DNA of 64,000 nucleotides, from NCBI GenBank assembly GCA_030698375.1, contig JAUYLL010000132.1:1-64000 (forward strand). The letters run 5' to 3'. Shown here piece after piece: positions 12,902-64,000 of this stretch. This DNA comes from Nocardioides sp. (GTDB lineage Bacteria > Actinomycetota > Actinomycetes > Propionibacteriales > Nocardioidaceae). The position numbers and the translations under genes are program-made. The stretch's first letter is position 1. Every line of letters begins with the position of its first letter. Below the pieces are notes generated by a model. It searched no databases. It had not been told where the DNA came from and saw nothing but the letters and a program-made list of their open reading frames with translations.

Positions 12902-13686
12902 CGCCGCTTCCTCCGCGTCTTCTTGTCGGACCCGTCCGGGCCATGGGGGTTGCCGATCTCCCGCACCCCGGCGCGCCGGGGGTCGAACCGCTCTGCCGGG
13001 GCCCGCTCGCCCCGGATCTCCTCGAGCAGATCGGTGATGGCGGTCATGATGTCCTCGGTCGCTGCACGGAGCACCGCCGGGGTCGGCTGCGCGCCGTCGT
13101 ACGCCGTGAGATCGACGGGTGCGCCGGCGCGGACGGTGACCGTCTTGCGCGGGACGAGGTCGAACTTCGTGGCGTACGGCGCCAGGATCTGCTGGGTGCC
13201 CCACTGGGCCACGGGGACGACCGGGCACCCGGTGGCGAGGGCGATCCGTGCCGCGCCGGTCTTGCCCACCATCGGCCACAGACCCGGGTCACGGGTGAGC
13301 GTGCCCTCGGGGTAGACGATGACCAGCTTGCCGTCCCGAACCGCGTCGACCGCAGCGGTGAAGGCGTCGCTGGCGGTGCTCGTCAGCCGGGCCACCGGGA
13401 TCTGGCCACTAGCGCGCACGATGCGCCCGGCGAAGGGGATGGCGAAGACCTCGGTCTTGGCGAGGTAGCGGGGCAGGCGCCCCTGGTCGTAGACGAAGTG
13501 CGCGAACGTCAGCGGGTCCAGGTGCGAGACGTGGTTGACCGCCAGCACGCAGCCGCCCCCTGCGGGGATGTGCTCACCGCCGTGCCAGTCACGACGGGTG
13601 GCGAGCGTCAGCGCCGGCTTGAGGATGCCCACGGCTGTCGTGAACGCCCACCCCCGCTTCTCGTGCAGTGTGCGCCGTCCGGCCAC
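12898..13686 (-). CDS. 1-acyl-sn-glycerol-3-phosphate acyltransferase
   Basis: NHVSHLDPLTF (HX4D) and YPEGTLTRDPGL motifs; overlaps gpsA. Confidence 0.9.
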   Translation of the reverse strand: MAGRRTLHEKRGWAFTTAVGILKPALTLATRRDWHGGEHIPAGGGCVLAVNHVSHLDPLTFAHFVYDQGRLPRYLAKTEVFAIPFAGRIVRASGQIPVARLTSTASDAFTAAVDAVRDGKLVIVYPEGTLTRDPGLWPMVGKTGAARIALATGCPVVPVAQWGTQQILAPYATKFDLVPRKTVTVRAGAPVDLTAYDGAQPTPAVLRAATEDIMTAITDLLEEIRGERAPAERFDPRRAGVREIGNPHGPDGSDKKTRRKRR

Positions 13687-26183: not shown

Positions 26184-26256
26184 TACCCCCGACCGGATTC
26201 GAACCGGCGCTACCGCCTTGAGAGGGCGGCGTCCTAGGCCACTAGACGACGGGGGC
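26184..26256 (-). tRNA. tRNA-Glu (anticodon CTC)
   Basis: GCCCCCGTCGTCTAGTGGCCTAGGACGCCGCCCTCTCAAGGCGGTAGCGCCGGTTCGAATCCGGTCGGGGGTA folds as a cloverleaf. Confidence 0.95.
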
Positions 26257-26310
26257 AAGCGGAGGGAACTCTAGCCACAGCTGGAGTTCACCGTCCAATC
26301 GGGACGTTCG

Positions 26311-26382
26311 CTGGGGTACTAGGACTCGAACCTAGACTAACTGGACCAGAACCAGTCGGGCTGCCAATTACCCCATACCCCA
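26311..26382 (-). tRNA. tRNA-Gln (anticodon CTG)
   Basis: TGGGGTATGGGGTAATTGGCAGCCCGACTGGTTCTGGTCCAGTTAGTCTAGGTTCGAGTCCTAGTACCCCAG. Confidence 0.95.
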
Positions 26383-51897: not shown

Positions 51898-53031
51898 ATG
51901 ATCCGTCGCGCACGTCCCGTCCTCGCCGGTCTCGCACTCGTGCTCGTGGTGGGTGCCTGCGGCACCGAGGACCCGACCCCAACGCCGGGCGAGCGCTCCG
52001 ACTCCCCCTCCCCCACTGACGCCGAGGACCCGGGCGTCTCCGAGGAGACCGGTCCGGTGACACCGCGGATCACCGGCGACGCCGCCACCGGCCTGCAGGC
52101 CCCGTGGGGACTCGGATTCCTGCCCGACGGGACCGCGCTGGTGACCGAGCGCGACACGGCGCGGGTCCTCGCGGTCACCGACGACGAGGTCCGGGTGGTA
52201 GCCACCCTCGAGCAGGCGGCACCCCGGGGCGAGGCCGGGCTACTCGGGCTCGCGGTCTCCCCGACGTACGACGAGGACGAGCTCGTCTACCTCTACCTGA
52301 CGACCGAGCAGGACAACCGGGTCGTCCGCGCGACCTTCGACGGTGACCGGCTCGGCACGCCCGAGGTCGTGCTCGAGGGCATCCCGAGCGCCTTCATCCA
52401 CGACGGCGGCCGGATCCGGTTCGGCCCCGACGACATGCTCTACGTCGCCACCGGCGATGCCTCAGAGCCGTCCCTGGCACCCGACGCCGGCTCGTTGGCC
52501 GGCAAGGTCCTGCGGATCACGCCCGACGGCGACCCGGCCCCCGACAACCCGGACCCCGACTCACCGGTGTGGACCGTGGGCCACCGCAACATCCAGGGCC
52601 TCACCTTCGACGACGAGGGACGCCTGTGGGCCAGCGAGTTCGGTCAGGACGCGTTCGACGAGGTGAACCTGATCGAGGCCGGTGAGAACTACGGCTGGCC
52701 CCAGGTCGAGGGCAAGGGCGACATCGACGGGCTCCGGGACCCCGCGCGCCAGTGGCCCACCTCCGAGGCGTCTCCCTCCGGCCTCGTCTTCCACGAGGGG
52801 TCGCTGTGGATGGCTGCGCTGCGTGGCCAGCGCCTGTGGCAGATCCCGGTGCGCGCGGACGGGTCGACCGGGCGCCCGGTCCCCCACTTCGTCGGGGACC
52901 ACGGTCGCTTGCGCACCGTCGAGGTGGCCCCCGACGGGAACCTGTGGCTGACCACCTCGAACCGCGACGGGCGCGGGGACCCAGGGAGGCAGGACGACCG
53001 GATCCTGGTCGTCGAGCTCACCCGCGACTGA
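51898..53031 (+). CDS. PQQ-dependent sugar dehydrogenase-like lipoprotein
   Basis: Lipobox LVVGACG; LQAPWGLGFLPDGTALVTERD...GGRIRFGPDDMLYVATGDA...VWTVGHRNIQGLTFDDEGRLWASEFGQD. Confidence 0.88.
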   Translation: MIRRARPVLAGLALVLVVGACGTEDPTPTPGERSDSPSPTDAEDPGVSEETGPVTPRITGDAATGLQAPWGLGFLPDGTALVTERDTARVLAVTDDEVRVVATLEQAAPRGEAGLLGLAVSPTYDEDELVYLYLTTEQDNRVVRATFDGDRLGTPEVVLEGIPSAFIHDGGRIRFGPDDMLYVATGDASEPSLAPDAGSLAGKVLRITPDGDPAPDNPDPDSPVWTVGHRNIQGLTFDDEGRLWASEFGQDAFDEVNLIEAGENYGWPQVEGKGDIDGLRDPARQWPTSEASPSGLVFHEGSLWMAALRGQRLWQIPVRADGSTGRPVPHFVGDHGRLRTVEVAPDGNLWLTTSNRDGRGDPGRQDDRILVVELTRD

Positions 53032-53842
53032 CGTCGGCGGGATCCGCCGCCCCCTCGCGCACCACCCGCGCCCGGCGCGACGCGCGCCGGAGGGTGGCCA
53101 GCACGGCAGGTCCCAGCAGCAGCACCATCGCCGTGGTGGTGATCGCCCGGCCGGTGTCCCAGCTGCCGGTCGAGGTCAGCAGCGTGTAGACGACGAAGCG
53201 CACGAGGTTCTCACCGATCGGGTCACCGGGGACGTAGGAGAGCCCGCCCTCGTGGCCGGGCACCAGGATGCCGAGGGTGTAGGGCCAGCTGGCCATGTTC
53301 ATGACCAGGCCGTAGGCATACGCCGCGACCACGCCGTAGGCCACCAGCAGCGCGAGCTCGGCGCGGCCGCGCGCACGTGGCAGCAGGCCGGCGCCCATGC
53401 CGACCCAGGCGGCGGCGAGCATCTGGTACGGCAGCCACGGCCCGACACCCGCGGTCACCAGGGCCGAGGCGAAGAGCGAGGTGCAGCCCAGCACGAACCC
53501 GAACCCCGGTCCGAACACCCGGCCACCGAGGATCAGCAGGAAGAAGACCAGCTCGACGCCCGCGACGCCCGCGCTGGCCCCGCGGAGCACTGCGTTGACC
53601 GCGGTGAGCACACCGAGCATCGCCAACGCGCGGGAGTCCATCCCGCCCTCCGTCAGCTCGGCGAGGACGACCACGACGACGACCGGGAGCAGCAGCAGGA
53701 AGATGAACGGCGGGTCGACGCGGTCGCCCGGCCGGGCCTGCAGGAGCAGCGGCCAGAGGAACATCATCAGGCCCGCCACCGTCGCGACGGCCAGCACGGT
53801 GCGCGAGCGCCACGACAGCGGCAGCGCCGCCGCCCGGCTCAT
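53018..53842 (-). CDS. ECF transporter S component (predicted cobalamin-type)
   Basis: Multi-TM protein ending the operon after ecfA and ecfT; cobalamin specificity inferred from riboswitches and partner genes. Confidence 0.7.
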   Translation of the reverse strand: MSRAAALPLSWRSRTVLAVATVAGLMMFLWPLLLQARPGDRVDPPFIFLLLLPVVVVVVLAELTEGGMDSRALAMLGVLTAVNAVLRGASAGVAGVELVFFLLILGGRVFGPGFGFVLGCTSLFASALVTAGVGPWLPYQMLAAAWVGMGAGLLPRARGRAELALLVAYGVVAAYAYGLVMNMASWPYTLGILVPGHEGGLSYVPGDPIGENLVRFVVYTLLTSTGSWDTGRAITTTAMVLLLGPAVLATLRRASRRARVVREGAADPADVSRG

Positions 53843-55458
53843 CCGACCCGCGCGAGCGCGTCGCGCACCTGGGCCACCGTGAGCCAACGCGGCCCGAGGA
53901 TCTTCGCGGTCTGCGGCGCGAACCCGGGCGACTCGGTGACGACCTTGGCGGCCGGGCCGCGGGAGACGACCTCCCCGTCAGCCAGCACGAGGGCGTCGTC
54001 GGACACGGCCGCCACGAACTCGACGTCGTGGGAGGCCACCAGCACAGCATGTCCCTCGGCGGCCAGCTCCCGCAGGACAGCGGCGAGCGCGGCCTTGCCC
54101 GGGTAGTCCAGCCCCCGGGTGGGCTCGTCGAGCACCAGCACGCGGGGCGAGGTCGTGAGCACGATGGCCAGGACCAGGGCCAGCCGCTGGCCCTCCGAAA
54201 GGTCGCGCGGGTGCTGGTAGGGGTCCACGGCCGGCACCAGGCGCTCGAGGAGCGCCGTGCACGTCCCGGCCTCGGCGTCGGCGGCCCGGTCCGCGGCGGC
54301 ACACTCCTCGGCCACCGTCTCCAGATAGAGCAGGTCAGCGGCCGTCTGCGGCACCAGCCCGACGCTGCGCCGTCGCTCCTCGGGGCCGAGGTCGCGCGGG
54401 TCGCCGGTCGCCACGCGAACGGAGCCCGCCGTACGCCGGCCGCTGCCCTGGAGCGCCCACAGCAGCGAGGACTTGCCCGACCCGTTGCGGCCCATGAGGC
54501 CGGTGACCTCGCCGGCCCGCAGGTCCAGGTCGACCCCGCGCACCGCGACCGTGCTGTCGTGCACGACGGTGACGCCGCGGGCCTGGAGCAGCACGTCGTC
54601 GGCGGCGCCGTCGGGCGGCTCGGTCACCGCGTCGCCGTCGCCCAGCCGCTCCCGGAGGTCGTGGGAGCGCCGGCGCGCGTCACGCACCGACAGGGGCAGC
54701 GGCTGCCACCCCGCCAACCGGCCGAGCTCGACGATCGGGGGCGCCACCGGGCTCGACTCGAGCATCCGCTGGGGCTCGCCGGCGGTCAGCCGGCCGTCAC
54801 CGTCGAGGACGGCCATCCGGTCCGCGAAGGGCACGACGCGCTCGAGGCGGTGCTCGGCCACGACGACCGAGACGCCGACGTCGTGGACCAGCCGGGTCAG
54901 GGTCGCGAGCACGTCCTCGGCCGCCGTCGGGTCCAGTGCCGAGGTGGGCTCGTCGAGCACGAGGACCCGGGGGTGGGTGGTGAGGACGGCGCCGATCGCC
55001 ACCCGCTGCTGCTGGCCGCCCGAGAGCGTACGCAGGTCACGGCCGCGGAGCTCGGGGATGCCTAGGAGGTCGAGCGTCTCCTCGACCCGACGGCGCATGG
55101 TGGCCGGGTCGTAGCCCAGCTGCTCCATGCCGTAGGCGAGCTCCTCCTCGACGGTGTCCGTGACGAAGCCGGCGGCCGGGTCCTGACCGACGGAGCCGAT
55201 CATGTGGGCGCGCTCCCGGGGAGGCAGGTGCAGGATGCTGCTGCCGTCGACGAGCACGTCGCCACGCAGGCTCCCGCCGGTGAAGCGCGGGACCAGACCG
55301 GTGAAGAGCCCCAGGAGCGTGGACTTCCCGACCCCGGTGCGACCCGCGACGAGCAGGAGTTCGCCCTCCTCGACCACGAGGTCGACGGCGTCGAGCACCC
55401 GCACCGGCTCACCCTGGTCGTCGTCGTAGTCGAAGGTGCACGACCTCAGCTCGATCAC
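53839..55458 (-). CDS. ECF transporter ATP-binding protein, two fused ABC ATPase domains
   Basis: Two Walker A (GRTGVGKST, GRNGSGKSS) and two signature motifs (LSGGQQQR, LSEGQRLA). Confidence 0.93.
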   Translation of the reverse strand: MIELRSCTFDYDDDQGEPVRVLDAVDLVVEEGELLLVAGRTGVGKSTLLGLFTGLVPRFTGGSLRGDVLVDGSSILHLPPRERAHMIGSVGQDPAAGFVTDTVEEELAYGMEQLGYDPATMRRRVEETLDLLGIPELRGRDLRTLSGGQQQRVAIGAVLTTHPRVLVLDEPTSALDPTAAEDVLATLTRLVHDVGVSVVVAEHRLERVVPFADRMAVLDGDGRLTAGEPQRMLESSPVAPPIVELGRLAGWQPLPLSVRDARRRSHDLRERLGDGDAVTEPPDGAADDVLLQARGVTVVHDSTVAVRGVDLDLRAGEVTGLMGRNGSGKSSLLWALQGSGRRTAGSVRVATGDPRDLGPEERRRSVGLVPQTAADLLYLETVAEECAAADRAADAEAGTCTALLERLVPAVDPYQHPRDLSEGQRLALVLAIVLTTSPRVLVLDEPTRGLDYPGKAALAAVLRELAAEGHAVLVASHDVEFVAAVSDDALVLADGEVVSRGPAAKVVTESPGFAPQTAKILGPRWLTVAQVRDALARVG

Positions 55459-56579
55459 GACCTGCTCCTCTCGGGGTACGACGGTGCCGGTGCGACGAGC
55501 GCCGGTGCAGCAGCGAGGAGGACGGCCATCAGCAGCAGCACCGTCACCTGCGGGACCGCGGTCAGCGGTGGGTAGTTCGCGAGCATCGCCCGGTCGGCAC
55601 TGAGGATGACCAGCGTCGCGGTCGCGACGCCACAGGCGAGCACCCCGATCTCCGCGGGTGCCCACCGGTCCGGGCGGTACCGGGTACGGCGCACCCGTCG
55701 TCCGGCAGCCGCGATCCCCGTGCCGGCGAGCAGGCAGCCGAGCACCAGCAGCGGCACCCCGAGGTCGCCCTCCCCGGCCTGGTCCAGCAACGCGTAGATC
55801 CCCAGGCAGAGCCCGATCAGGCCCGCGAGCATCAGGGCACCCGTCGTACGGCGCTCGGCGGGGGTGGCCGTGCCGGCACGGCCGTAGCCGCGGGCGTCCA
55901 TGCCCGCGGCGAGCTGGAGGCTGCGGGCCAACGCGTCCTCCAGCACCGGGACGACGAGGCGCCGCAGACCCCGGATCCGCCCGGGCGGACCGCCGCGCAG
56001 CTCCTGCGCGCGGCGCACGCGGCGCACCGAGTCCGCCAGCTGAGGGATGACGGTGACCGCGACGACGACGGCGGTGCCGACCTCGTAGAGCGCCGGGGGC
56101 AGCGACTTGAGCAGCCGCTTGGGGTTGGCGAGCGCGTTGGCGGCGCCGATGGCGATCACGATGGTGGCCAGGCGCATGCCGTCGTACAGCCCGGCGAGCA
56201 CGGTCTCCTGGGTGATGGGCCCGAGCAGCACCACACCAGCCACCCAGTCCGGCAGCGGGACGGTCGGCAGGTCGAGCCAGACGACGGTGCCGTACCCGCC
56301 CCCGAGGAGCACCCGGAACACGACGCGCACCACGACGATGAACAGCCCGAACCACAGATAGAGACGGAACGAGCGCGCCCACGGGTGGTCGCCCCGCCGT
56401 TGCGCGACGACCCACGCGGCCGCGGCGACGAGCAGGAGCAGCACGAACGGGTTGGTGGTGAAGGACGCGGCGGCCGCGAGACCGATCGCCCACCCCCACC
56501 AGGCCGCCGGGTGCAGCTCGCGCGGCAGCCGCCGGGCACGGGGCCCGGCGGCTGCCTTCTCGCTCGTCGCGGTGGTCAC
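55455..56579 (-). CDS. ECF transporter T component (EcfT/CbiQ family)
   Basis: Multi-TM, with MDARGYGRAGTATP coupling motif (ARG) and position in ECF operon. Confidence 0.88.
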   Translation of the reverse strand: MTTATSEKAAAGPRARRLPRELHPAAWWGWAIGLAAAASFTTNPFVLLLLVAAAAWVVAQRRGDHPWARSFRLYLWFGLFIVVVRVVFRVLLGGGYGTVVWLDLPTVPLPDWVAGVVLLGPITQETVLAGLYDGMRLATIVIAIGAANALANPKRLLKSLPPALYEVGTAVVVAVTVIPQLADSVRRVRRAQELRGGPPGRIRGLRRLVVPVLEDALARSLQLAAGMDARGYGRAGTATPAERRTTGALMLAGLIGLCLGIYALLDQAGEGDLGVPLLVLGCLLAGTGIAAAGRRVRRTRYRPDRWAPAEIGVLACGVATATLVILSADRAMLANYPPLTAVPQVTVLLLMAVLLAAAPALVAPAPSYPERSRS

Positions 56580-56581
56580 GA

Positions 56582-57259
56582 TCAGGCCGTCCCGGTCCCC
56601 CGGCGACGGCGTACGGCGGCCCCGATCGCGAGCGCGGCGAGCAGACCGAGCAGCACCAGCGGCACCGCCAACGGCAGGCCCCCGCCCTCGGACGCGGTCG
56701 GAGCCGCGGCGGACTCCTCGACGGCTCCGGGCTCGGCCTCGTCCGCCTGCGTCTTCCCAGCGTTCGGCGTGGCCGAAGCACTCGCCCCGACCACTGGCGG
56801 GGCGATCCCGGGAATGTCGCGCTCACCACCGCTCTGCCACGCCAGTGCGATGGACCCACCGGCCGGAATGCGCAATCCGACGATGCCCACGCTGGCGTAG
56901 CTCCAGGTCCCGGACTTGCCGTCGGACCAGAACAGCCCCCAGTAGGCGTTGACCGGTGGGGTCTTCACGCAGGGGTCGGAGGCTGGCGCCCCACTCACCC
57001 GACACACGAAGCCCGGGTCGCGCTGGACGTAGTCGATCGGGTGCCCGACGCCCGACACGATCTCCGACCCCACCTTGCCCCCGCCCTCCGTGGCGCACGC
57101 CGAGGACAGCGCCCCACCCAGCCCACGCGCGTCGACGACGACGCTCACCCCGTCGCTGGGACCGCAGACGGCCGCGGCCGCCGGCCCCCCAAGGGGGCCG
57201 ATCAGCACCGCAGTCATGGTGAGCACCCCCACAACCACCCCCGCGACGAGCCTGGGCAT
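56582..57259 (-). CDS. Exported DUF4430-like protein with C-terminal TM anchor (beta1)
   Basis: Signal peptide, CGPSDGVSVVVDARGLGG...YWGLFWSDGKSGTWSYASVGI...; C-terminal LPLAVPLVLLGLLAALAIGAAVRRRR. Confidence 0.65.
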   Translation of the reverse strand: MPRLVAGVVVGVLTMTAVLIGPLGGPAAAAVCGPSDGVSVVVDARGLGGALSSACATEGGGKVGSEIVSGVGHPIDYVQRDPGFVCRVSGAPASDPCVKTPPVNAYWGLFWSDGKSGTWSYASVGIVGLRIPAGGSIALAWQSGGERDIPGIAPPVVGASASATPNAGKTQADEAEPGAVEESAAAPTASEGGGLPLAVPLVLLGLLAALAIGAAVRRRRGTGTA

Positions 57260-57266
57260 GGTCACG

Positions 57267-58466
57267 TCAGCAACCCGCGCCGTCCTGCTCGCCCTCGAGC
57301 GTCCAGAGCAGGCTCGGGAGGGCCTGGGTCGCGGTGACGTTCCACTGCTGGAAGGTCTCCTCGAGCCCGTCCGCACGTCCTGCAGCCAGGGCAGCCTCGT
57401 CGAAGGCGATGGCACCGGCTTCGTCGTCCAGCTCGTCTCCGCACTCCTGGTCGGGGACCTGGAGCGCCCGGACCCAGGCCGCAGCCTGGGAAGCCTCGTC
57501 GTCCATGCCCCGGAGCCCGAGCGCCCACCCGGCCAGGCCTGTGCTGTTGGCGTTCGGGCCCCCGGTCTCCGCTCCGGCGTCGAACGCGCCGTCCGTCGTC
57601 TGACGCTGGACGAGCCACTCGGTGGCAGCGGTCAGCGCATCGTCGACCTCCGTATCCTCTGCCGCGAGTGCGTGGAGCTGGAGGATGACGGTCGCGGTGG
57701 TGTCGGGCCCAGCGTCGTCCGTTGCAGGAGTCGTGCAGTCCTGCGTCTCGGCGTCGATGTCCGGGAACTCCTGCCTGAAGTGACCGTCAGGGCACTGCTG
57801 GTCGAGCAGGTAGTCCAGTGCCTCCTGGGCGCGCGCCGACCCGGCCTCGTGCAGCCCGCGTACGACGAACGCCTGGCCGAGGCTGTTGGCGTACTGGTGG
57901 TCGGGCTCGCCCTGGGCGGTGTCGAAGCTCCGACCGACGGCGGGGCCGTCGTCGACGAGAAGGGACTCGGCGCGCTGGACCAGGTCGATCCCTCCAAAGC
58001 TCCCGGTGTCCCCGTCGACGAGGTCCGCCAGGACCAGCGCCTTCCCGGTGGCACCGGCGACCTCGCCGGAGGAGACCTCGCCGTCCTCACCCTCGAACTC
58101 GTACTCGACGTACGACCCCGCAGCGTCCTCGACCGCTGCCGCCACGGCCGAGATCGCATCCTCCTGGTCCCCGACGGCGTCCAGGGCGAGCGCAGCATCG
58201 ATGCTCTGGCCGTGGAGCGGACCGAAGTCCCCCTCGAGCAACCCGTCTTCGGCGAGCCGCTCCGCCAGCCAGGCAGCACCAGTTGCTGCCGGACCCGGGT
58301 CCGCACCGTCCGGAGGCGTGAGCGACGCGGGACTGGGGTCGGTGGTGGCCGTGCCCGACTCGGTGTCCGACCCCGACCCGGTGCATGCCGTGGTCATCGC
58401 GAACGCCAGGACGGCGCCGGTGGCGACGGCGACGCGGAGACGCACGCGTCGTGGGGTGGATGACAT
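57267..58466 (-). CDS. Prenyltransferase/transcobalamin-like alpha-barrel lipoprotein (alpha1)
   Basis: MSSTPRRVRLRVAVATGAVLAFAMTTACTGSGSD lipobox; repeated helical motifs AAWLAERL...ALVLADLV...YANSLGQAFVVRGL...QCPDGHFRQEF...NANSTGLAGWALG. Confidence 0.65.
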   Translation of the reverse strand: MSSTPRRVRLRVAVATGAVLAFAMTTACTGSGSDTESGTATTDPSPASLTPPDGADPGPAATGAAWLAERLAEDGLLEGDFGPLHGQSIDAALALDAVGDQEDAISAVAAAVEDAAGSYVEYEFEGEDGEVSSGEVAGATGKALVLADLVDGDTGSFGGIDLVQRAESLLVDDGPAVGRSFDTAQGEPDHQYANSLGQAFVVRGLHEAGSARAQEALDYLLDQQCPDGHFRQEFPDIDAETQDCTTPATDDAGPDTTATVILQLHALAAEDTEVDDALTAATEWLVQRQTTDGAFDAGAETGGPNANSTGLAGWALGLRGMDDEASQAAAWVRALQVPDQECGDELDDEAGAIAFDEAALAAGRADGLEETFQQWNVTATQALPSLLWTLEGEQDGAGC

Positions 58467-58489
58467 GGGTGGGTCCTTCCCGCTGCACA

Positions 58490-58690
58490 CAGCGGAAGGA
58501 CACCTCGAAAGGCGACTCCTCCGCTGCTTTCCTCGACAGCGATCATGAGGACGCTCCGCGACGGGTGCTCCGGCTCGTGGCCCCGAGGGGCCACCTACGG
58601 TTGCGGGTCAGCGCCGGACTTCGACCGGCTTTCCCCAGCACGAGCGTGATGGTGTGGTGCTGCCCCTCGGTGAGGAGCGAAAGCAGGTTA
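58490..58690 (-). promoter_or_regulatory. Cobalamin (B12) riboswitch, copy 1
   Basis: Minus strand GGGGAAAGCCGGTCGAAGTCCGGCGCTGACCCGCAACCGTAGGTGGCCCC: B12-box core consensus. Confidence 0.85.
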
Positions 58691-58732
58691 TCAGGACCCG
58701 GGATCGACCTCGCCACACCGCCGAATGCAGAG

Positions 58733-58783
58733 GGCAGCCGCCGGGCACGCGGCCCGGCGGCTGCCGTCTCACTCGTCGCGGTG
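58733..58783 (-). pseudogene. Remnant of ecfT 5' end (duplication scar)
   Basis: 51 nt with 48 identical to ecfT N-terminal coding 56524-56574 (TATSETAAAGPRARRLP vs TATSEKAAAGPRARRLP). Confidence 0.85.
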
Positions 58784-58790
58784 CTCCTGT

Positions 58791-59732
58791 TCAGACCGCC
58801 CCGGTCCCCCGACGACGGCGTACGGCGGCTGCGACCGCGAGGGCGGCGAGCACACCGAGCAGCACCAGCGGCACTGCCAGCGGCAGACCCCCGTCCCCGG
58901 AGGCGGTCGGAGCCGCGGCGGACTCCTCGACGGCCTCGGGCTCGGCCTCGTCCGCCTCCGTGGTCCCAGCACTCGGTGTGGCCGAAGCGCTCGCCTCCGC
59001 CTCGGAGAGGGCGGCCGCACGGGCCCGACGACGCTCCCGGCGCTGCTCGCGCCCGGTCTCCCGCTCCTCCGCCACGGTGGCACCCGCACGGGTGTCCGAG
59101 CCGGAGCCCGGACCCGGTGCGGTCCGCGACCCTCCCGAGCCGGCCGGCGGAGCCGTGTCACCACCCGACGACCCTGGGGACGCCCCCGGTGCGGGCGCCG
59201 GCTTCGGCGTGGGTTGCGACGACGGCTTCGGGGCCGGCTTCGGCGCCGACGAGGCCACCGGCGGGGCGGTGCCGGGCGCCTTCCGACCGTTGCCGTCCTG
59301 CCACGCGAGGCCGATCGACCCACCCGCGGGGATGCGGAGGCTGGTGATGCCGGAGCTCGCGTAGCTCCACGTCCCGGACTTCCCGTCGGACCAGAACAGA
59401 CCCCAGTAGGCGTCGGCCGGAGGCGTGTTGACGCACGGGTCCGAGGACGGCGCACCGCTGACGCGGCACACGAAGCCCGGCTGCCGCTGGACGTACTCGA
59501 GCGGGTACCCGACGCTCGGCACGATCTCCGCGCCCGTCTTGCCTCCGCCGTCGGCGTCGCACGCCGAGGACAGCGACCCACCCAGGCCGCGGGCGTCGAC
59601 GACGACGCTCACGCCGTCACCGGGACCGCAGACCGCCGCGGTGGCCGGACCCGCCAGGGGCCCGACCAGCGCCGCGGCCACCACGAGCAACAGCGCCGGT
59701 CCGAGGGCACCGAGCGATCGTGTGCGCTGCAT
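58791..59732 (-). CDS. Exported DUF4430-like protein with proline-rich linker and C-terminal TM anchor (beta2)
   Basis: Paralogue of 56582-57259: YWGLFWSDGKSGTWSYASSGI; PKPAPKPSSQPTPKPAPAPG linker; LPLAVPLVLLGVLAALAVAAAVRRRR. Confidence 0.65.
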   Translation of the reverse strand: MQRTRSLGALGPALLLVVAAALVGPLAGPATAAVCGPGDGVSVVVDARGLGGSLSSACDADGGGKTGAEIVPSVGYPLEYVQRQPGFVCRVSGAPSSDPCVNTPPADAYWGLFWSDGKSGTWSYASSGITSLRIPAGGSIGLAWQDGNGRKAPGTAPPVASSAPKPAPKPSSQPTPKPAPAPGASPGSSGGDTAPPAGSGGSRTAPGPGSGSDTRAGATVAEERETGREQRRERRRARAAALSEAEASASATPSAGTTEADEAEPEAVEESAAAPTASGDGGLPLAVPLVLLGVLAALAVAAAVRRRRGTGAV

Positions 59733-59734
59733 GG

Positions 59735-61381
59735 TCAGCGCACCACGCGGAACGCCGCGCGCCCGACCCGCACCTTGGGCAGCACGCCGGTCGCGCGGAC
59801 CCGGGCCGGACCTGCCTTCGACAGGCGGACCCGGGCGACGAAACGGCCGCGCGGGCCTGCCTCGCCGCGCGCGACCCGGCGGCCGCGGACGAAGACCTGC
59901 GCGGGCTCGCCACCGACGAGGCCGCGGACCACGATGCGCTGGACGGTCCCGGCAGGCAGCGGACGCTTGGCGACCCGGACACCGAGCTCCTTCGGGACGA
60001 CGGCTCGGACCGTGGTCCGGTAGGCCTGGGTGGAGTCGGCCACCACGATGTCTCGGTTGCCCGCACGTCGCGGCAGCTTCACTGCGGACCGCACGCCCCC
60101 ACCGACCCCGGCGGCGTCGAGCGTGCGCGAGACCTTGCTGCGTACACAGACCGTCTCGCCCGGGGCGAGCCCGCGGACGGCGACCCGGTGGTTGGTGCTG
60201 GCGCGGCCCCACTCCTTGGCCGCGACGCGCACCGTGGCGCCCTTGCGTGCCCACAGAAGAGCGGGGACCGCCTGCGTAGCGGTGATGTTCCACTGCTGGA
60301 AGGCGTCGTCGAGGTCTCCCGTGCGTCCGGTGGCCAGCGCCCGGTCGTCGAAGGCCACGGCACCAGGCTCTGCGTCGAGAGCCGTGGTGCACGGGGAGAC
60401 CGGCTGCACCTGACGGGCCCGCACCCAGGCCGCGGCCCGGGCGGCAGGGGCGCCCGCGCCCCGGACACCCAGCGCCCAGCCGGCCAGGCCGGTGCTGTTG
60501 GTGTTCTCGCCCTCGGTGGCGGTGCCCGCGGTGAAGGCGCCGTCGGTCGCCTGGCGGCCGACGAGCCATTCGGTGGCGTCGGTCAACGCCGCGTCGACGA
60601 CAGGGTTCGTCCCTGCGAGGCCCTGGAGCTGGAGCACCACGATCGCCGTGGTGTCGGGACCGGTGCCTGCCGCAGCGGGTGTGGCGCAGCCCTGGTTCGC
60701 GGCCCCGATGTCGGGGAACGTCTGACGGAAGTGGCCGTCGGGGCACTGCTGGGACAGCAGGTAGTCCAACGCCTGCGGAGCGCGGAGCGAGCCGACCTCG
60801 TGCAGGCCACGAACGACGAAGGCCTGGCCGAGGCTGTTGGCGTACTGGTAGTCCGGAGCGTCCTGGGCCGTGTCGAAGATCCGGCCGGTGGCCGGCCCAT
60901 CGGCGACGAGCAGGGACTGGGCGCGCTCGACGAGGTCAATCCCTCCGAAGCTCCCGGGATTGGCGCCCACGAGGTTCGCGAGGACGAGCGCCTTGCCGGT
61001 GGCGCCGGCGACCTCGCCGTAGTACGTGGTGCCCCCGCTGTCGAAGGAGTACTCGACGTAGGACCCTGCGGCCTCCTCGAGCGCCGTGCCGATCGCGCTC
61101 ACGTCGGCACTACGGCCTCCGACGGCGTCGAGGGCGAGCGCGGCGTCGATGCTCTGGCCGTAGAGCGGGCCGAAGTCGCCGGGCAGCAGCCCGCCCTGGA
61201 GGCGCCCGGCCAACCAGGCGGCGCCCGCGGCGGCCGGACGGTCGTCAGCGGCGGAGGGGGCCGTAACGGGTACGGCGGAGGCGGCGCCCCCGACGGCGAG
61301 GACGGTGGTCGCGGCCACGGCCAGCGCGGTGCTGGTGGCGACGGTGACGCGCAGACGTGCGCGTCGTGGGTTGGGTGACAT
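59735..61381 (-). CDS. Secreted prenyltransferase/transcobalamin-like alpha-barrel protein with extra C-terminal beta-rich region (alpha2)
   Basis: Paralogue of 57267-58466 (QSIDAALALDAVGG, YANSLGQAFVVRGLHEVGS, QCPDGHFRQTFPDI) with signal peptide and ~170-aa extension. Confidence 0.65.
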   Translation of the reverse strand: MSPNPRRARLRVTVATSTALAVAATTVLAVGGAASAVPVTAPSAADDRPAAAGAAWLAGRLQGGLLPGDFGPLYGQSIDAALALDAVGGRSADVSAIGTALEEAAGSYVEYSFDSGGTTYYGEVAGATGKALVLANLVGANPGSFGGIDLVERAQSLLVADGPATGRIFDTAQDAPDYQYANSLGQAFVVRGLHEVGSLRAPQALDYLLSQQCPDGHFRQTFPDIGAANQGCATPAAAGTGPDTTAIVVLQLQGLAGTNPVVDAALTDATEWLVGRQATDGAFTAGTATEGENTNSTGLAGWALGVRGAGAPAARAAAWVRARQVQPVSPCTTALDAEPGAVAFDDRALATGRTGDLDDAFQQWNITATQAVPALLWARKGATVRVAAKEWGRASTNHRVAVRGLAPGETVCVRSKVSRTLDAAGVGGGVRSAVKLPRRAGNRDIVVADSTQAYRTTVRAVVPKELGVRVAKRPLPAGTVQRIVVRGLVGGEPAQVFVRGRRVARGEAGPRGRFVARVRLSKAGPARVRATGVLPKVRVGRAAFRVVR

Positions 61382-61384
61382 GGG

Positions 61385-61605
61385 TGGGTCCTTTCCGCTG
61401 CGCACAGCGGAAAGGCACCCCGAAGGGCGACTCCTCCGCTGCTTTCCTCGACAGCGATCATGAGGACGCTCCGTGGCGGGTGCTCCGGCTCGTGGCCCCG
61501 AGGGGCCACCTACGGTTGCGGGTCAGCGCCGGACTTCGACCGGCTTTCCCCAGCACGAGCGTGATGGTGTGGTGCTGCTCCTCGGTGAGGAGCGGGCGCA
61601 GGCTA
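61385..61605 (-). promoter_or_regulatory. Cobalamin (B12) riboswitch, copy 2
   Basis: Same B12-box core as copy 1 (GGGGAAAGCCGGTCGAAGTCCGGCGCTGACCCGCAACCGTA), plus SD-containing hairpin 61390-61415. Confidence 0.85.
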
Positions 61606-63123
61606 TCAGGACCCGAGCTTCTCCAGGATGAGCTCTCGGACACGTCCGGCGTCGGCCTGGCCGCGCATCTGCTTCATCACCGCACCGATGAGCGCACCGG
61701 CCGCGGCGACCTTGCCGTCGCGGATCTTCGCGGCGACGTCGGGGTTGGCCGCGATGGCGTCGTCGACCGCCTCGGACAGCGCGCCCTCGTCGGAGACGAT
61801 CGCCAGACCACGCTTCTCCACGACCTCCTCCGGAGTGCCCTCCCCCGCGATGAGCCCGTCGAACACCTGGCGCGCCAGCTTGTCGTTGATCGACCCACCC
61901 TCGACGAGCGCCTGCACGGCCGCGACCTGCGTCGGGGTGACCCCCAGCGCGGGCAGTTCGACCCCGGCGTCGTTGGCCCGGCGGGCGAGCTCGGAGAGCC
62001 ACCACTTGCGGGCCGCGGCGGGGCTGGTGCCGGCCGCGATCGTCTCCTCCACCAGGGTCAGCGCGCCGGCCCCCACCGTGTCGCGCATCTCCAGGTCGGA
62101 GTAGCCCCACTCCGCCTGCAGGCGGGCCCGCCGCTGGGTCGGGTTCTCCGGGAGGGTGCCGCGCAGCTCCTCGACCCACTCGCGGCTCGGGGCAACGGGC
62201 ACCAGGTCGGGCTCGGGGAAGTAACGGTAGTCCTCGGCGTCGGACTTCTCCCGGCCGCTGGTGGTGACCCCGGTGTCCTCGTGCCAGTGCCGGGTCTCCT
62301 GCAGGATGCTGCCTCCGCCGCCGAGGATCGCGGCGTGCCGCTGCATCTCGTGACGCACGGCGCGCTCGACCGACCGCAGGGAGTTGACGTTCTTCGTCTC
62401 CGTGCGCGTCCCGAGCACCCCGGAGCCCTTCGGCGCCAGCGAGAGGTTCACGTCCGCGCGGATGGAGCCCTGGTCCATCCGCGCGTCGGAGACCCCGAGG
62501 GCGACGATCAGGTCGCGCAGCTGGGCGACGTACGCCTTGGCCACCTCGGGGGCCCGTGCTCCGGCGCCGACGATCGGCTTGGTGACGATCTCGATGAGGG
62601 GGATGCCGGCACGGTTGTAGTCGACCAGGGAGTAGTCGGCGCCGTGGATCCGCCCGGAGGTGCCGACGTGCAGGGACTTGCCGGTGTCCTCCTCCATGTG
62701 GGCGCGCTCGATCTCGACCCGGTAGGTCTCGACCTCGCCGTCCTCGGTGGGCACCGTGACGTCCATCCAGCCCTCGAACGCAATCGGCTCGTCGTACTGG
62801 CTGGTCTGGAAGTTCTTCGGCATGTCCGGGTAGAAGTAGTTCTTCCGGGCGAAGCGGCACCACTCGGCGATCTCGCAGTTGAGCGCCAGACCGATGCGGA
62901 TCGCCGACTCCACGGCCTTCCGGTTCACCGCCGGCATCGCCCCGGGCAGGCCGAGGCAGGTCGGGCAGACCTGCGTGTTCGGGTCGGCGCCGAACTCCGT
63001 GGGACACCCACAGAACATCTTGGTCGCGCTGTTCAGCTCGACATGCACCTCGAGGCCCAGCGCGGGGTCGTAGGTGGCCAGCACGTCCTCGAACGGCACC
63101 AGGGTCGTGGTCGCGGCGCTCAT
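61606..63123 (-). CDS. gatB: Asp-tRNA(Asn)/Glu-tRNA(Gln) amidotransferase subunit B
   Basis: [51 protein letters not shown]. Confidence 0.97.
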
Positions 63124-64000
63124 GCGGAGGCTCCCTCTCGTCGGTCGAGCCCCGCGGGGAGCTCGGGCGGGGTCAGCGGGCCGCCCCAGCGGGCGTGCAG
63201 TGCTGCCTCGAGGGCGGCTCCGACCCGGTAGAGCCGGTCGTCGGCCAGCGCGGGCGCGAGCACCTGGAAGCCCACGGGCAGACCGTCCTCCTCGGCGAGC
63301 CCGGCCGGCACCGAGATGCCGGGGACGCCCGCGAGGTTGGCCGGGATGGTGGCGAGGTCGTTGAGGTACATCGCCAGCGGGTCGTCGAGCTTCTCGCCTA
63401 GGCGGAACGCCGTGGTGGGCGACGTCGGGGACACCAGCACGTCGACCTGTGCGAAGGCCGCCTCGAAGTCGCGGGAGATCAGGGTGCGTACCTTCTGGGC
63501 CTGGCCGTAGTAGGCGTCGTAGTAGCCGCTGGAGAGCGCATAGGTGCCGAGGATGATCCGGCGCTTGACCTCGTCGCCGAAGCCGGCGTCCCGCGTGGCG
63601 CGCATGACCTCCTCGGCCGACGGGTCGGGGACCCCTTCGGGCAGGACGCGCAGGCCGTAGCGCATCGCGTCGAACTTGGCGAGGTTCGAGGACGCCTCGG
63701 ACGGCATGAGCACGTAGTAGGCGGCGAGCGCGTGGACGAACTGCGGGCAGGAGACCTCGACGACCTCGGCTCCGGCCGCGACCAGGAGGTCCAGCGACTC
63801 GGTGAAGCGGGCCTGGACGCCGGCCTGGTAGCCCTCGCCCTGCAGCTCGGTGACCACGCCGACACGGAGGCCGGACAGGTCGCCGGTCGCCCCCTTGCGG
63901 GCCGCGCCGACCAGGTCGGGCAGCGGCTGGTCGACGGAGGTGGAGTCGCGGGGGTCGTGGCCACCGACGAGCTCGTGGAGCAGCGCGGCGTCGAGGACGG
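63120..64000 (-). CDS. gatA: Asp-tRNA(Asn)/Glu-tRNA(Gln) amidotransferase subunit A (5' end beyond window)
   Basis: C-terminal part: [30 protein letters not shown]...[19 protein letters not shown]...[23 protein letters not shown]. Confidence 0.96.

Follow-up and report, generated by a model that had tools for sequence, protein, structure and literature searches.

The 64,000-nucleotide stretch of Nocardioides sp. DNA analysed here (contig JAUYLL010000132.1, positions 1 to 64,000; hereafter the window) carries a minus-strand locus that likely encodes a transcobalamin-like capture module that is split into two chains, is under B12 control and feeds an ECF importer. The riboswitches, the protein folds, the conservation of the operon, the fused relatives and the B12-dependent enzymes of the host were all observed by computation. 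The locus has the order riboswitch-alpha2-beta2-riboswitch-alpha1-beta1-EcfT-fused EcfA-EcfS, and the gene order, strand and coordinates (53018-61605) given in an earlier sequence-only reading were all borne out when the window was re-read (Table 1). Leader, alpha and beta form a unit that is duplicated in tandem: the leaders of alpha1 and alpha2 are near-identical and the family alignments give 65% identity between alpha1 and alpha2 and 70% between beta1 and beta2. EcfA probably starts at a GTG at position 55458, which overlaps the stop codon of EcfT. Translations read by eye place GatB-like and GatA-like genes at 61606-63857 (-), both on the strand of the first riboswitch and ending directly 5' of it, and a sorbosone/glucose-dehydrogenase-like exported protein at 51898-53031 (+), convergent with EcfS. 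The window also contains two adjacent tRNA genes at 26184-26382 (-).

Table 1. Features of the riboswitch-alpha-beta-ECF locus in the window, in the direction of the minus strand
Feature	Position	Strand	Evidence
Cobalamin riboswitch copy 2, 5' of alpha2	61458..61572	-	RF00174 24.8 bits, E 1.5e-4; nhmmer 123.7 bits
Hairpin just 5' of alpha2 ATG, RBS-like GGAAAGG paired	61390..61415	-	Fold of 61376-61423
alpha2, predicted exported alpha/alpha toroid, 548 aa	59735..61381	-	N-terminal hydrophobic span; identity to alpha1
beta2, 313 aa: signal sequence, beta-grasp domain, long linker, C-terminal hydrophobic span	58791..59732	-	
Cobalamin riboswitch copy 1, 5' of alpha1	58494..58682	-	RF00174 24.6 bits, E 2.2e-4; nhmmer 124.6 bits
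Hairpin 5' of alpha1 ATG, RBS-like sequence paired	58474..58500	-	Fold of 58461-58508
alpha1, predicted alpha/alpha toroid, 399 aa	57267..58466	-	AF2 pLDDT 95.2; Foldseek
beta1, 225 aa: predicted transcobalamin-like beta-grasp domain, C-terminal hydrophobic span	56582..57259	-	AF2 pLDDT 90.2; Foldseek; hhalign
EcfT, CbiQ family	55455..56579	-	PF02361, E 5e-12
EcfA, two fused ABC ATPase domains	53839..55458	-	PF00005, two stretches
EcfS, substrate-specific membrane component	53018..53842	-	PF12822, 33.6 bits vs cut-off 30.7

The two B12 riboswitches named in the sequence-only reading are of the cobalamin type as judged by RF00174, by compensatory base pairs and by the recurrence of the leader; both RF00174 scores (24.6 and 24.8 bits) are below the Rfam gathering score of 31.5, and the E-values of about 2e-4 refer to the stretches searched. 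Alignments to the full RF00174 model located the aptamer core and the paired structure in both leaders, and these two copies were the only matches to the model at E <= 0.01 in the host genome. The RNAalifold consensus of 23 aligned leaders, the two from the window included, contained 32 pairs, and at 12 of these the pairing was kept through a double change in at least one sequence. A nucleotide profile of the leader (nhmmer) detected the element in 78 of 81 sequences, comprising 80 related loci and the window, and the three loci missed (L085, L117 and L125) have little or no sequence 5' of alpha or beta. The profile was built from 21 loci and the window, with the remaining loci unused in its building, so that for those 21 loci and for the window, including its nhmmer scores in Table 1, detection is not an independent test. 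Before the ATG of both alpha genes an RBS-like sequence is paired in a hairpin, with a folding energy of -27.5 kcal/mol (z -4.15) at alpha2 and -22.6 kcal/mol (z -3.08) at alpha1, which suggests translational control; the alpha2 hairpin is a possible translational switch.

An AlphaFold model of beta1 (pLDDT 90.2, pTM 0.85) was searched against the PDB using Foldseek, and ranks 1 to 11 were occupied by transcobalamin or haptocorrin chains and by 3u7z, with probabilities of 0.95-1.00, TM-scores of about 0.5 and E-values of 6e-3 to 2e-2, which never reach 0.001. The next entry, an unrelated fold, had a probability of 0.47. The 3u7z entry is a Ruminococcus gnavus protein that the DUF4430 profile also touches (E 0.02). 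Comparison of a phylum-wide beta alignment (A8) with 28 DUF4430 domains using hhalign gave a probability of 94.4%, an E-value of 8.9e-8 and a score of 49.8, against scores of at most 22.1 for 30 column-shuffled versions of A8 and of 10.8 and 12.7 for two unrelated alignments. The same comparison made with the narrow Nocardioides beta alignment (A4) gave 1.2% and no support, and profile searches of the PDB with the beta alignments returned chance matches only. Direct Pfam scans assigned no family to beta1 or beta2, DUF4430 (PF14478) included, and no family recurred among 66 Nocardioides homologues; direct scans of NCBIfam and PHROGs with the beta proteins also gave no match. The earlier description of beta as DUF4430-like thus stands on the Foldseek and A8 profile-profile results, while the part of it that would be a direct Pfam match was not found. 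As modelled, and at the level of profiles, beta shares its fold and its homology with the transcobalamin C-terminal domain and DUF4430. In both beta1 and beta2 a hydrophobic span is present at each terminus. All four cysteines of beta1 are invariant in A4; in A8, C57 and C68 are invariant, C26 is conserved in at least 90% and C3 is in neither list. Disulphide bonds, if formed, would fit export.

The alpha proteins had been read as alpha/alpha-barrel, prenyltransferase-type proteins, and the AF2 model of alpha1 is a confident alpha/alpha toroid (pLDDT 95.2); Pfam scans of alpha found the squalene-cyclase, TED and prenyltransferase toroid families as weak matches below their cut-offs. The best Foldseek matches of alpha1 in the PDB were squalene-hopene cyclases and type II terpene cyclases, with transcobalamin at rank 43 (E 5e-4), and squalene-hopene cyclases again came first in a profile search of PDB sequences with alpha. 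The fold nearest to alpha is therefore that of the cyclases, but their DXDD catalytic motif is not retained in this alpha/alpha toroid: at the aligned place both alpha1 and alpha2 have GPDTTA. The modelled fold of alpha does not by itself single out transcobalamin. Export-type N-termini are present in both alpha and beta, in agreement with their proposed export. Alpha1 is a possible lipoprotein, with Cys28 ending the hydrophobic N-terminus when read by eye, and alpha2 has an N-terminal hydrophobic span. Alpha2 is also longer at its C-terminus by about 150 aa (59738-60214, -), a stretch that is not in alpha1 and has no Pfam match.

Judged from their sequences, EcfT, the two ABC domains and the S component constitute an ECF transporter. 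Pfam found neither CbiM nor CbiN among the operon proteins, with PF12822 instead. Searches of the PDB with EcfS by sequence and by profile found no solved relative, CbrT included, and the nearest named NCBIfam model was a folate-type S family, far below its cut-off. The statement that BtuCDF-type genes are missing holds within the window. Outside the window the host genome has one FecCD-type ABC importer at 2953-5928 of L200 (host contig C60); its genes include one for a substrate-binding protein, and a methyltransferase-like gene comes next. All three importer proteins have 'putative F420-0' models as their highest-scoring matches, and for the permease this model exceeds the BtuC models in score, all of these scores being below cut-off.

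The host genome encodes MetH, three matches to the methylmalonyl-CoA-mutase family and six B12-binding domains. CbiC was not found in the host assembly, the completeness of which is 87%. Among 77 genomes of the family, CbiC was absent from 24 of 64 with beta and from 2 of 13 without it (p 0.20), and was thus present in most of the beta-bearing genomes (40/64). The use of the locus as a marker of B12 auxotrophy is unsupported by this association in the 77-genome sample.

Of 80 loci of Nocardioides and relatives, all those on a sufficiently long contig keep the order alpha(-alpha)-beta-T-A-S. In a phylum-wide sample of 20 loci, alpha, beta and the ECF genes occur together in most, in orders that vary, and the leader element is present in 17. 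At L178, for example, alpha comes after EcfS, and L190 carries an extra beta gene, preceded by a leader of its own, on the opposite strand. A DUF4430 match (E 4.7e-8) was also observed just after alpha at L178 (approximately 12982-13128, +), where the short piece around it has no Pfam match by itself. Across the 77 family genomes, alpha and beta co-occur with a Fisher p of 1.5e-6, uncorrected for relatedness. At three other actinobacterial loci (L177, L187 and L196) alpha and beta are found in one chain; the fusions at L187 and L196 have three matches each to the cell-wall-binding repeats PF04122, with a separate beta gene alongside. Matches of A1 in family f25 were considered as further fusions and dropped, having no alpha match and appearing L,D-transpeptidase-like by eye.

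Animal transcobalamin, haptocorrin and intrinsic factor combine a toroid and a beta-grasp domain, the same folds as alpha and beta, in a single chain, whereas two chains are found here. Pfam Cobalamin_bind is weakly matched by a few alpha relatives. Alpha1 matches the NCBIfam model SCO2321_fam (NF053823) with an E-value of 2e-13, far below its curated cut-off of 300 bits; relatives match SCO2321_fam or SCO2322_fam (NF040672, cut-off 85 bits), all far below the cut-offs, and the fused protein of L187 matches both, again below the cut-offs. Neither model is matched by alpha2, beta1 or beta2. Burroughs et al. (2007), in their passages on the SLBB superfamily, described bacterial fusions to toroids as well as operons containing CbiO and CbiQ genes; their proposal was that toroid and SLBB proteins scavenge B12 in other Gram-positives (PMC1796856). 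The general idea is therefore not new. The present locus resembles those systems in having an exported beta-grasp domain with an alpha/alpha toroid as its partner, and in encoding a CbiO-type ATPase and a CbiQ-type permease alongside. The systems in those passages are chiefly from low-GC Gram-positives and are often toroid-fused, whereas separate chains are encoded here, and each alpha-beta pair is located behind a cobalamin riboswitch, a link that is not part of the passages concerned, which also do not name these actinobacterial genes (PMC1796856). The additions made here are the split two-chain form and the riboswitch link. Among ECF importers, ECF-CbrT has been characterised as one for cobalamin, and it carries cobinamide as well (PMC5997447); cobalamin is likewise the substrate proposed for the ECF importer described here. 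The two differ in their S components, which are dissimilar by sequence search, and in that the account of CbrT, in the parts drawn on, is without exported capture proteins (PMC5997447). Searches of the open-licence literature found no paper on SCO2322 and none on an ECF transporter together with a cobalamin riboswitch and a prenyltransferase.

Exported proteins resembling the two halves of transcobalamin are encoded beside a vitamin importer, and B12 is therefore probably captured outside the cell and passed in. In the proposed mechanism, alpha1 would possibly be lipid-anchored and alpha2 secreted, while beta would be held to the membrane by its C-terminal span. We infer that alpha and beta would close on one corrinoid, presumed to be cobalamin, outside the membrane, as the two transcobalamin domains do, and that the pair would then bring it to EcfS of the EcfT-EcfA-EcfS importer. 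At high cellular cobalamin levels, the riboswitches would favour the RBS-hiding hairpins at alpha1 and alpha2, and expression would be lowered.

The cargo could differ from the control signal: the importer and capture proteins would then serve a corrinoid precursor or other cobamide, such as cobinamide, with cobalamin acting in regulation only. This is considered unlikely, the transcobalamin-type fold of beta and the B12-dependent enzymes of the host both standing against it, and it draws what weight it has from the fact that a riboswitch reports cobalamin status and not the transported substrate, from the carriage of cobalamin and cobinamide alike by ECF-CbrT (PMC5997447), and from an EcfS that the sequence and profile searches of the PDB left unassigned. 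A use of alpha and beta in binding corrinoid at the surface, for storage or competition and with no delivery to this ECF importer, is less probable again, since alpha, beta and EcfT-EcfA-EcfS occur together in nearly all loci examined; the cell-wall-binding repeats of two fused versions and the additional, separately led beta on the other strand of L190 are in its favour.

Cobalt import for B12 synthesis, with alpha and beta unrelated to B12 binding, would accord with the CbiQ family membership of EcfT and with the occurrence of cobalt transporters under B12 riboswitches (PMC7689651). The operon proteins match PF12822 in place of CbiM or CbiN, CbiC was not found in the host genome and beta has a transcobalamin fold, all of which makes a cobalt importer very improbable. 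The preferred reading is still that of a split capture module supplying B12 to the ECF importer. A more specific form of it, to which we give slightly less than an even chance, is that the actinobacterial transcobalamin clamp consists of two proteins, one lipid-anchored or secreted and the other membrane-anchored, which would assemble round the vitamin and dock on the ECF importer, and that the fusions of some lineages would connect this pair to the single-chain animal carrier.

In ECF importers as described for ECF-CbrT, the membrane S component is itself the binding protein (PMC5997447). If the reading given here is true, a riboswitch-controlled exported pair with the transcobalamin fold would add an outer capture step to ECF import, and a function would be suggested for the NCBI families SCO2321 and SCO2322, which are named by locus tag only. 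The bacterial proteins related to the animal B12 carrier would also gain an actinobacterial model that can be put to the test.
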